Assembly (NCBI GenBank): GCA_937941245.1
Contig: CALDYC010000133.1
Coordinates: forward strand, 1 to 34,983
Source: an uncultured Acidimicrobiales bacterium
GTDB taxonomy: Bacteria > Actinomycetota > Acidimicrobiia > Acidimicrobiales > UBA10347
Reading direction: 5' to 3'
DNA length: 34,983 bases
Under the pieces are notes generated by a model that did not search any database, had not been told where the DNA came from, and saw only the letters and a program-made list of their open reading frames with translations. Shown one piece after another: positions 1 through 31,018 of this stretch; positions within the stretch are counted from its first letter, which is position 1, and each line of letters begins with the position of its first letter. The position numbers and the translations under genes are program-made.

Positions 1-996
1 TCGGTACGCATATAAGTAATAAGGCCCTTTTCGTACAAGCCTTGGGCGGTACGCATGGCCATCGCTGCTGACAGGTTGAGCTTGCGGCCCGCCTCTTGTT
101 GCAGCGTCGAGGTGATGAACGGCGCAGCAGGGCGGCGGCGATAGGGCTTGGCTTCGACCGAGCTGACTTCGCTTGGCTGACCTTGCAGCTCACCAACCAA
201 GGCCTCGGCCCGGGCTTGGTCGACGATGACGGCCTCGGCGTTGGTGAGCGAACCATCTTGGCCGAAGTCGCGACCTTGGGCGATCCGCTTGCCATCGATT
301 TCGAGCAGCTTGGCGGTGAAGTCAGAGGGCTCGCCCTCGACCGCTTCGCGAGTGAGCGCAAACTTGGCTTCGAGATCCCAATACGAGGCGCTCACAAACG
401 CCATGCGCTCGCGTTCACGTTCGACGACGATGCGAGTAGCAACAGACTGCACCCGGCCTGCCGAGAGCTTTGGCATGACTTTCTTCCACAGCACCGGTGA
501 CACTTCGTAGCCGTACAGCCGGTCGAGCATGCGGCGCGCTTCTTGTGCATCGACCATCTTGCGGTCGAGCTCACGAGGATCATCGAGCGCTTCGTGGATG
601 GCCTTCTTGGTGATCTCGGTGAACACCATGCGATGCACTTCGACGTTCGAAGGAGGTGACAGTACTTCTAGGAGGTGCCACGCGATTGCTTCGCCCTCGC
701 GATCCTTATCCGTCGCGAGATACAGCTGGTCGGCACCCTTCATCAAGCTCTTCAGCTTTTTGATCTGGTCCTTCTTGTCGCTCGACACCACATAGAGCGG
801 CTTGAAGTCGTTGTCGACATCGATGCCGAGCCGAGCCCACTTCTCGGCCTTGTAGGCCTTGGGGACATCTGCGGCCCCTCGCGGCAAATCCCGGATGTGC
901 CCGATCGACGATTCAACGACATACCCGTCGCCGAGATACTCCGCGATCTTCCGAGCTTTCGCCGGGCTCTCGACAATGACCAGTGCGTGTCCCACG
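1..996 (-). CDS. topA: DNA topoisomerase I, N-terminal part (cut by window edge)
   Basis: Type IA topoisomerase that relaxes negative supercoils by single-strand passage. Reading the minus strand from the GTG at 994-996 gives an N-terminus with the Toprim signature ALVIVESPAKARK, then LYLATDKDREGEAIAWHLL (the acidic DxDxE metal site region), LYGYEVSPVLWKK and KLSAGRVQSVATRIV. The frame stays open to base 1, where it reads GLITYMRT, so the window ends just after the expected catalytic tyrosine. About 330 of some 900 residues are present. The start is uncertain: in-frame GTG codons also lie at 1012-1014 and 1036-1038, but the GTG at 994 places Toprim closest to the usual distance from the N-terminus. 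No clear Shine-Dalgarno is visible. The family call is secure. Confidence 0.95.
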
Positions 997-1062
997 GCGG
1001 CAAGGCTAAGCACGCCCAACCCAGATTTCCGAGTCACCCACGCAAATTAGGTTCTTAGCCCG

Positions 1063-28600: not shown

Positions 28601-28760
28601 GCGCTCACGGTCTTGTAGCGAACGCATCGGCTCAGACCGCAACCTTCCCGTCTGTCTTTTCGGCGTCGACCTCAGTTGTGTCATCGCAAAGAACGTCAAA
28701 GCGCATGCCTGAATGTCGGAGCACCGTCAGCAGATCGCCGAGAGCGATAGCGTTCGATGC
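28601..28760. promoter_or_regulatory. Gap after lhr with a candidate leaderless -10 for the SDR gene
   Basis: In this 160-bp gap TAGCGT at 28748-28753 lies 7 nt before ATG 28761. A short minus-strand frame (ending at 28632) reads MRFDVLCDDTTEVDAEKTDG but has no ribosome-binding signal, so I do not call it. Confidence 0.4.
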
Positions 28761-29531
28761 ATGACTCGTGTGCTCGTCACCGGAACCGATCGCCCGCTTG
28801 GACAGGCTGTGCTGCCGCGCATGCTGCGACATGGTTTCACCGCCGTCGCAGCGATAGGTGACGTCGCAGGCGAAGTCGTTGCATTGGATAGCTCGCGAGT
28901 GATCGATCACGACATCGTGGTTGACCTCGACACCCACAGCAGCATCAAAACGGCACTCGCCGACATCGACGCACTCGTCCACACCGCCGACAGCCGTCCG
29001 GGAGCCAACTCCTCCATCGTCGATGCGGCGCGGGCGATGGCATCGGCCTGTGCCGAAACTGACACCCACCTGATCTTCGTCTCTCGGGTCGGTACCGACG
29101 TCAGCTCACTCGACCATCGCAAAGATCTCTGGCAAGCAGAACAGATCGTCGAAGCCACCCACGGCCTGGGATACACCATCCAGCGGATCACGCACACTCA
29201 CGATGCCGCCGCTGCACTCTTCACCCAGCCATGGCTTCCACTGCCGAAAGGCGCCGCAATCCAGCCGGTTGCTCCCGCCGATGTTGCTGGACGCATTGTC
29301 GGTCTGGTCCATGCTGGACCGTCCGAACGGGTCCGCGATTACGGCGGTCCGGAGCTCATCAGCTTTGCCCAACTGTCGAGCATTCACGACCAGGTTCGCG
29401 GTTCGCTTCCTCGCCGGGTGCCGCTGCCGAAGTTCGGCGTCTTCGCCGAAGCCATCAATGGCGTGCACGTGACCATTAACGGTGACCGGGGCCGCATCAC
29501 CTACCGTCACTGGTTAACCGAACAGACCTGA
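28761..29531 (+). CDS. NmrA-like atypical SDR / NAD(P)-binding protein
   Basis: Protein of 256 residues beginning MTRVLVTGTDRPLGQAVLPR, a Rossmann nucleotide-binding start of the TGxxxxxG type. The fold continues with VDLDTHSSIKTALADIDALV and LIFVSRVGTD. The classical YxxxK catalytic pair of SDRs is not evident, so it belongs with atypical NmrA/epimerase-like members that often bind NAD(P) as sensors or reductases. The ATG is preferred over an in-frame start 48 nt earlier because the fold begins at once and a -10-like box lies 7 nt upstream. It precedes fxsA on the same strand. Confidence 0.85.
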   Translation: MTRVLVTGTDRPLGQAVLPRMLRHGFTAVAAIGDVAGEVVALDSSRVIDHDIVVDLDTHSSIKTALADIDALVHTADSRPGANSSIVDAARAMASACAETDTHLIFVSRVGTDVSSLDHRKDLWQAEQIVEATHGLGYTIQRITHTHDAAAALFTQPWLPLPKGAAIQPVAPADVAGRIVGLVHAGPSERVRDYGGPELISFAQLSSIHDQVRGSLPRRVPLPKFGVFAEAINGVHVTINGDRGRITYRHWLTEQT

Positions 29532-29561: not shown

Positions 29562-29570
29562 TAGCGCTTG

Positions 29571-30185
29571 ATGTTCGGGCTGATTCTGCTTTTGCTGGTC
29601 GTGGTGCCCATCGTTGAGCTGTATGTACTTATGCAGGTTGCCGACGGGCTGGGATGGCTGACGTCTCTGTCGTTGCTCGTTGCCATCAGCCTGATCGGCG
29701 GCGCGCTGATGAAATGGCAGGCCGCTGGCGCGGTGACCCGCGTGTTCAGCCGCATGCGCGGCGGCGAGCTTCCGTCCAAAGAACTCATCGACGGTGCGCT
29801 CATGATCTTCGGTGGCTCACTGTTGCTCACGCCTGGCTTTTTCACCGATGCAGTCGGTATTGCGATGTTCATTCCACCACTGCGTGCGGTCGCCCGAGCG
29901 GGCGTCCTCAAGCGAGTAACCCAACGCGTCGACGTCATTCGCACCACTGCAGGCCAACAGGCAAGCGCCCATTTCGGTGGCGGCTTTAGCGCCAGCGGAT
30001 TTGGCGGCAGCGGTTTTGGCGGCGGTGACAACCAACGATCGCCGTTCGGGTTTGCAACCTGGACGAACCAGACCACCAGCTCGAACAACCAATGGATCGA
30101 CGTCGACGAAGTCGATATCGAACGCATCGACGACCCGAGCCTTCCACTTCCCCCTGCCAATCCCTCACGGAGCGACGACCAATGA
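29571..30185 (+). CDS. fxsA: FxsA-family membrane protein
   Basis: Protein of 204 residues. The first half is FxsA-like: MFGLILLLLVVVPIVELYVL, then LTSLSLLVAISLIGGALM, and LLLTPGFFTDAVGIAMFIPP, together giving about four membrane segments. The second half is a soluble tail rich in Gly, Phe and Ser (FGGGFSASGFGGSGFGGG), then an acidic stretch with DVDEVDIERIDD. E. coli FxsA suppresses exclusion of phage T7 by F when overproduced; the normal role is unknown. Its stop overlaps the start of the following MBL-fold gene (ATGA), so the two are cotranscribed. Confidence 0.92.
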   Translation: MFGLILLLLVVVPIVELYVLMQVADGLGWLTSLSLLVAISLIGGALMKWQAAGAVTRVFSRMRGGELPSKELIDGALMIFGGSLLLTPGFFTDAVGIAMFIPPLRAVARAGVLKRVTQRVDVIRTTAGQQASAHFGGGFSASGFGGSGFGGGDNQRSPFGFATWTNQTTSSNNQWIDVDEVDIERIDDPSLPLPPANPSRSDDQ

Positions 30186-31018
30186 TGGAAAACATCGAAG
30201 AACTCGAAGAAGAAGAGGTAAGAGAAGAAATCGTGCCCGGAGTGGCACGAGCACTCTCACCAATGGCTCGGCGCATTCTTGCAATGAACCCGGGCCCCCG
30301 CACCGGCCTCGGGACCAACACCTACATGGTTGGCATCGATGAGATTGCGGTCGTCGACCCGGGCCCGATGGATCAGACCCACATCGACGCCATAATCGGC
30401 TGCGGTGGCGATCTCATCCGCTGGATTCTCGTCACCAACGACTCCGCCGAGCACGCTGGCGCAGTGCCAGAGCTCGCCAAGCAGACCGGTGCGATCGTCA
30501 TGGCCATGTGCGACATCGACTGCGACGAAAAGCTGAAGAACGGCGATCAGCTCGTCGGCACCGAGTTCCGTCTAACGGTGAAACACCTGCCGGGTCCATC
30601 TGCCAAGAACATCGGTCTCATGCTCGAAGAAGAACGCATGCTCCTGTCCGGTGATCTCATCGTCGACGGGCCAAGCGTGGCGATCGGCCAGCCTGAGGGC
30701 GACATGACCGCGTACCTCGAATCGCTCGAGTCGCTAAAGAAGCTCCGCCTCAAGCGGATCGCTCCGGCCCACGGCTACGTCATCGAAGAACCCAAAGTCG
30801 TCGTACAGGAGTACATCGACCATCGCCTGGCCCGCGAGGCCCAGATCCTCAAGGCCCTCGGCAAGGACACCAAACGGGTCGAAGACCTTGTAGAGATCGT
30901 GTATCCCGATCTCGAGGGTGAGATGGCTGAGTTGGCTGGGGGCAACGTCTGGGCCCACCTCATCAAACTTCGCACCGAGGGCAAGGTCAAGGGCCAGAAG
31001 AACTTCACCGCCACCTGA
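30182..31018 (+). CDS. Metallo-beta-lactamase-fold protein with degenerate metal site
   Basis: LACTB2-like protein of 278 residues with a very acidic start (NIEELEEEEVREE), then the family segment RRILAMNPGPRTGLGTNTYM. The hallmark HxHxDH reads N86-D-S88-A-E90-H91, so only the last His is kept. The next ligand motif (PGHxxGH) reads PGPSAKN. Asp158 in LLSGDLIVDG and His197 in PAHGYV are kept. A C-terminal winged-helix-like part follows (for example WAHLIKLRTEGKVKGQ). The fold call is firm, but the usual two-metal hydrolase activity is unlikely; it may bind nucleic acid or act structurally. ATG 30182 is used, with 30185 also possible. Confidence 0.85.
   Translation: MMENIEELEEEEVREEIVPGVARALSPMARRILAMNPGPRTGLGTNTYMVGIDEIAVVDPGPMDQTHIDAIIGCGGDLIRWILVTNDSAEHAGAVPELAKQTGAIVMAMCDIDCDEKLKNGDQLVGTEFRLTVKHLPGPSAKNIGLMLEEERMLLSGDLIVDGPSVAIGQPEGDMTAYLESLESLKKLRLKRIAPAHGYVIEEPKVVVQEYIDHRLAREAQILKALGKDTKRVEDLVEIVYPDLEGEMAELAGGNVWAHLIKLRTEGKVKGQKNFTAT

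Follow-up and report, generated by a model that had tools for sequence, protein, structure and literature searches.

The human metallo-beta-lactamase (MBL)-fold protein LACTB2 coordinates its metals through His77, His79, Asp81, His82, His145, Asp164, and His199, as described in the available part of PMC4770246. Subclass B2 beta-lactamases work with one zinc ion, bound in the second site (PMC5018959, available part), and the D73A variant of PqsE is catalytically dead yet binds RhlR (PMC12077149, available part). We analyzed a stretch of 34,983 nucleotides from an uncultured Acidimicrobiales bacterium, here called the window, which contains an MBL-fold gene (pseudo-MBL) next to fxsA. The encoded protein does not match the two-metal site HxHxDH / H / D / H but reads NDSAEH / P / D / H; its metal site 1 (His, His, His) is wholly absent, and the site 2 positions are Glu90, His91, Asp158, and His197. 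The present role of this dead MBL is probably to bind something, not to cleave it. Table 1 lists the features of the locus.

Table 1. Features of the pseudo-MBL locus, in window coordinates
Feature	Position	Strand	Content or basis
fxsA	29568..30185	+	205-aa membrane protein gene; PF04186, E 3.6e-28
Pseudo-MBL gene	30182..31018	+	278 aa plus stop; predicted LACTB2-type MBL fold with winged helix
Acidic tail at the N terminus (residues 1-16)	30182..30229	+	sequence; regional constraint
Residues 17-85, under the strongest constraint in the clade	30230..30436	+	PGVARALSP, GTNTY, GIDEI, DPGP, GCGGD
NDSAEH (residues 86-91) replacing HxHxDH	30437..30454	+	Glu90 and His91 left of site 2
PGP (residues 137-139) replacing PGH	30590..30598	+	third site 1 ligand lost
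Asp158, bridging ligand position retained	30653..30655	+	within SGDL
His197, site 2 ligand position retained	30770..30772	+	within PAHG
BLACT_WH winged helix, residues 233-270	30878..30991	+	PF17778, E 4.3e-10

The initial annotation had described an intact gene, coupled to fxsA, for a protein with a strongly acidic N terminus and a remaining MBL fold, in which the motif reads N-D-S-A-E-H, PGH has become PGP, and Asp158 and His197 are retained, and all of these points were borne out. The open reading frame (ORF) is open throughout, its start codon overlaps the fxsA stop in the tetranucleotide ATGA at 30182-30185, and a second in-frame ATG is found at 30185. Residues 1 to 16 include nine Glu and one Arg. 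The protein matches PF00753 (Lactamase_B; E 6e-12, Pfam) and, over residues 24 to 270, human LACTB2 (4ad9; E 9e-26, phmmer). A first structure prediction from a five-row input gave a pLDDT of 44 and was discarded; after the addition of sequence L202, we obtained the model used here, with a mean pLDDT of 77 and a pTM of 0.75. The best PDB match of this model was again 4ad9 (Foldseek E 2.5e-18; Z 22.7, rmsd 2.7, 240 residues aligned), and PqsE was among its top fold matches. Sequence and model together thus predict a LACTB2-type alpha-beta-beta-alpha MBL fold with a C-terminal BLACT_WH domain. The claim that the HxHxDH ligands had been lost was too broad. Site 1 is gone, but of the final DH the His is kept and the Asp is exchanged for Glu (it is Asp in the homologue of genome G002). 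In the LACTB2 numbering of PMC4770246 (available part), the residues lost are the equivalents of His77, His79, and His145, that is, exactly metal site 1.

To place the protein, we compiled relatives from the order, in which 210 of 397 genomes gave matches at E 1e-20 or better. Family groups are given as codes within the order, f1 being the window's genus. We read 43 ligand-poor proteins, distributed over f1 (5), f52 (2), f26 (14), f57 (1), f44 (4), f24 (1), and f17 (16), in a census that is not exhaustive, since weaker matches and a few f17 and f26 genomes (e.g., G387, G114, G310, and G326) fall outside it. Three sequences were dropped before ligands were counted in the alignment, namely, L037 (G004, C-terminal end only), L041 (a shortened translation of a long paralogue of the type discussed below), and L044 (another MBL). 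Site 1 is absent from all four full-length homologues of the same genus, which read NGSEEH, NADEDH, NSNPEH, and NDTDEH, each with PGP; a fifth (G004) is truncated where its contig stops and is uninformative. All 52 canonical rows (47 short-type orthologues, 4 long paralogues, and 1 SAR324 protein) have the standard residue at every ligand position, as have 38 of 39 further orthologues of the order. The remaining one, L252 (G083), belongs to a canonical lineage and reads QTHPDH, with the first site 1 His replaced and the rest intact; G083 also encodes a second MBL, on contig 94. Outside the order, the 24 relatives fetched in class and phylum searches were all canonical, and no ligand-poor form was found among these loci. 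A viral or plasmid origin was likewise rejected at the level of sequence matches. In viral contigs, the clade profile matched no relative and the canonical profile matched one protein, itself canonical, which was also the sole match of a further search. Relatives were present in 52 plasmid records, all below 60% identity.

An IQ-TREE phylogeny of 188 columns, from which the ligand columns had been removed, united the 43 ligand-poor proteins in a single clade (support 100/99) that lies within the canonical orthologues, the nearest family being f53. L037, L041, L044, and L016 were left out of this tree and identical sequences were entered once; the clade was present in 100% of 200 bootstrap trees, in a bootstrap that had not fully settled. 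Metal-ligand loss spans this whole conserved clade, and the tree places the loss of the site 1 ligands in one ancestor of several families of the order. Multiple independent losses are unsupported, as the tree gives a single clade without the ligand columns, and a sequencing error or a lone decayed copy was rejected because the loss is common to 43 genomes with open frames. Within the clade, (i) the site 2 set (Glu/Asp, His, Asp, His) is kept in all seven rows of f1 and f52; (ii) the bridging Asp is lost in all 14 f26 proteins, which have Lys, Gln, or Gly instead; (iii) both site 2 His are lost in f44; (iv) the winged helix is lost in members of f17, f24, f44, and f57; and (v) two rows, L104 of f24 and L117 of f17, still have His at the second motif position, the other site 1 ligands being gone. 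Because ligand and winged-helix losses differ among f1, f52, f26, f44, f17, f24, and f57, loss appears to have proceeded stepwise from a shared start.

The initial annotation regarded the protein as a repurposed fold and named relaxed selection, along with close relatives bearing the normal motif, as evidence that would speak against this. The close homologues share the loss, none of the four full-length relatives of the genus has the normal motif, and there is no general relaxation, so the proposal is supported. By the NG86 method, dN/dS was 0.04 to 0.19 in the least diverged f26 pairs and 0.07 to 0.16 within the window's genus, the latter being rough because dS exceeds 1 (saturated). Values were looser in f44 (0.16 to 0.56), and the six least diverged pairs of canonical f53 gave 0.07 to 0.35. 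The ligand-poor protein is thus under purifying selection, which is weaker in f44. That the gene is decaying and functionless is highly improbable: such decay would agree with the higher f44 values, with the loss of the winged helix in several lineages, and with f27, f34, f35, f40, f54, and f56, in which the long form is found and the short one may have disappeared, but frames are open in 43 genomes, dN/dS is low in f26 and the genus, and residues are invariant across seven family groups.

The distribution of constraint along the protein differs between the two forms. In canonical f53, the PGH..GD pocket (pN/pS 0.08) and the HxHxDH loop (0.09) are most constrained, and the N-terminal tail evolves freely (0.97). 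In the pseudo-MBL groups, the former HxHxDH loop has pN/pS values of 0.36 (f1), 0.27 (f26b), and 0.50 (f17), with f26a as an exception (0.04), whereas residues 17 to 85 have the lowest values in all four groups (0.12, 0.03, 0.07, and 0.16) and the tail gains constraint (0.27 to 0.49). In most groups, constraint has therefore shifted away from the HxHxDH loop and toward residues 17 to 85, the N-terminal face. The invariant set over 20 aligned members includes PGVARALSP, GIDEI, DPGP, and GCGG. The mean net acidity of the 16-residue tail is 4.2 in pseudo-MBLs versus 2.3 in canonical proteins, with overlapping distributions. The pocket segment 135-174 is well conserved in the window's genus (0.15) and in f26a (0.04) and drifts strongly in f17 (0.44).

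The state of the pocket bears on two other readings, both of which we consider improbable. According to the first, the protein is a sensor whose altered pocket accommodates a small molecule or nucleic acid, the linkage to fxsA being incidental. A pocket that is conserved within the genus and within f26a and differs between families would suit a sensor, and the winged helix could contact nucleic acid where it is kept; the drift in f17 and the absence of the winged helix from four family groups argue against it. According to the second, the protein has remained an enzyme and works with a single metal in site 2, in partial resemblance to subclass B2 beta-lactamases. Consistent with this are the site 2 positions kept throughout f1 and f52, the constrained segment 135-174 of the genus, and position 116, which is Asn in all five genus members as in B2 enzymes (PMC5018959, available part). 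However, B2 catalysis as described there needs His118 and His196, in place of which Ser/Asp/Asn/Thr and Pro are found here, and other clade members, namely, f26 and f44, have lost site 2 as well.

We next consider the gene neighborhood. FxsA is a widespread membrane protein whose role is poorly understood. The FxsA profile matched upstream of the MBL gene in 40 of 43 pseudo-MBL loci, and the other three have just 264, 761, and 674 bases upstream before the contig ends. Since fxsA is also upstream in 8 of 16 canonical loci, the linkage is older than the ligand loss. A NUDIX gene (identity confirmed by Pfam for one locus) lies just upstream in 12 of 16 canonical versus 6 of 43 pseudo-MBL loci; the canonical loci L079 and L080 have fxsA and no NUDIX gene. 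A strict joint loss of NUDIX and the active site was rejected, as NUDIX is kept in those six pseudo-MBL loci. The most economical interpretation is that an fxsA-NUDIX-MBL operon came first and that NUDIX was dropped from it several times after the MBL had lost its ligands. An ORF of SAR324 (L038:3371-4729) joins a canonical MBL in one chain to a putatively NUDIX-like N-terminal stretch, an arrangement that fits the separate NUDIX-MBL gene pairs of canonical loci. In the window, fxsA is preceded by an SDR/NmrA-like gene (28713-29531, +; weak PF13460 match), homologues of which lie upstream of fxsA in three of the four other full-length genus members; the contig of the fourth, G002, is short.

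The source genome also encodes, on contig 26 and thus on a different contig from the pseudo-MBL, an MBL protein of 341 aa whose motif is complete. This long paralogue was found at 170 bits or more in 38 of the 44 genomes with the dead protein (G004, with its cut gene, included), and all 30 long paralogues fetched have the full active-site motif. The other six genomes gave no strong match, three of them being 94 to 96% complete. Conversely, none of 61 genomes with a canonical short-type orthologue has a long paralogue separate from the short-type locus; these genomes were chosen for that orthologue, its motif was read for nearly all of them (G083, with its one changed His, is included), and no locus other than the short-type one scored above 100 bits. 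Strict exclusion between canonical short and long forms was nevertheless rejected, because G338, which is outside this set, has both. In a TopA tree of 39 hand-picked genomes, roughly resolved, the two forms go opposite ways in a few independent pairs, too few for significance. The TopA proteins of the small-genome f26 members L246 and L247 (G030 and G079) are extremely divergent from all others in this tree, those of their f26 relatives G170 and G342 included. The source genome has a second topoisomerase I fragment (contig 57:5865-6566, -), 82% identical to the one at the left end of the window (3-1037, -), which may be a second copy or reflect strain mixing in the bin.

The frequent presence of the long paralogue raises the possibility that the two proteins pair, with the pseudo-MBL as the inactive subunit of the heterodimer, for which there are precedents: INTS9, without MBL motifs, pairs with active INTS11 (PMC7980224, available part), and cyanobacterial Flv1/Flv2, without canonical ligands, act with Flv3/Flv4 (PMC4390876, available part). 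We judge this unlikely, if slightly less so than the sensor and one-metal readings, given that (i) the long paralogue is common in families in which no short-type protein was detected (e.g., f54 and f59), so that it does not need such a partner, (ii) the two genes are on different contigs, and (iii) human LACTB2 has been reported to be monomeric (PMC4770246, available part).

On balance, we lean toward a conserved pseudoenzyme that is kept for binding, with FxsA as the likeliest partner. Retention for binding is suggested by an N-terminal face that stayed conserved while the pocket drifted, and FxsA by the fact that fxsA was never seen dropped as a neighbor. We infer a lack of hydrolysis, a transfer of the catalytic job, FxsA binding, and metal binding. 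The proposed course is as follows. (i) The ancestor, a LACTB2-type MBL hydrolase within an fxsA-NUDIX-MBL operon, would have lost its site 1 zinc ligands once. (ii) In most of those genomes, the longer, fully equipped paralogue would serve as the zinc hydrolase of this type. (iii) The dead copy would have been retained through binding, its conserved N-terminal face doing the work, possibly as a soluble cytoplasmic subunit of FxsA. (iv) The winged helix and the NUDIX gene would then have disappeared from some lineages, the fxsA neighbor never being seen lost. (v) In the window's genus, the surviving Glu, His, Asp, and His may still bind a single metal ion with a structural or sensory role. As there are no equivalents of His118 and His196, the water-activation and substrate-polarizing steps of one-zinc CphA would be unavailable (PMC5018959, available part); since the f26a loop and the pocket of the genus are constrained, the site may still do something.

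A more specific version, which we advance tentatively and consider doubtful, is that the dead MBL joins FxsA in a two-part module anchored in the membrane and derived from an operon hydrolase of which only the binding face is kept, with the longer paralogue supplying the hydrolase in most genomes. If true, this module would provide a stepwise series from enzyme to scaffold (site 1, followed by site 2, the winged helix, and NUDIX in various lineages) and a way to approach what FxsA does in these bacteria. Because the fold by itself is usually enough for an MBL-fold gene to be annotated as a hydrolase, the whole clade would be misannotated. The stages of ligand loss, together with a canonical sister group and, in most genomes, a canonical paralogue, make the change from enzyme to binding protein comparable across families. 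Identification of the partner would help to understand both the pseudo-MBL and FxsA.

Among known systems, LACTB2, a human mitochondrial endoribonuclease, is the best match in sequence and structure over nearly its full length, including the C-terminal domain; it has a complete two-zinc site, whereas the pseudo-MBL lacks the three His equivalents and has Glu for Asp81. Subclass B2 (CphA) resembles it in Asn116 and in a possible one-metal site 2 layout, and no B2 enzyme was present among the pseudo-MBL sequence matches. In B2, His118 and His196 are catalytic and Asp120, Cys221, and His263 bind zinc, the counterparts here being Ser88, Pro139, Glu90, Asp158, and His197 (PMC5018959, available part, for both points). 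INTS9 and CPSF100 are likewise conserved MBL-fold pseudoenzymes with lost motif residues (PMC7980224, available part), but they are eukaryotic, contain beta-CASP domains, and belong to RNA 3'-end processing complexes. Flv1 and Flv2, from bacteria, have MBL domains that lack the canonical ligands, and they are found together with canonical forms (PMC4390876, available part); they differ in belonging to a diiron oxygen-reduction family with flavodoxin domains, another subfamily and context. PqsE of Pseudomonas aeruginosa is an MBL-fold protein in which RhlR binding is separable from catalysis (PMC12077149, available part) and which, unlike the pseudo-MBL, keeps an intact HxHxDH site. Our search of open-access literature yielded no report of a pseudo-MBL linked to FxsA or from Acidimicrobiales. 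The family is thus new, and the kind of protein that it represents, an MBL-fold pseudoenzyme, is already known.
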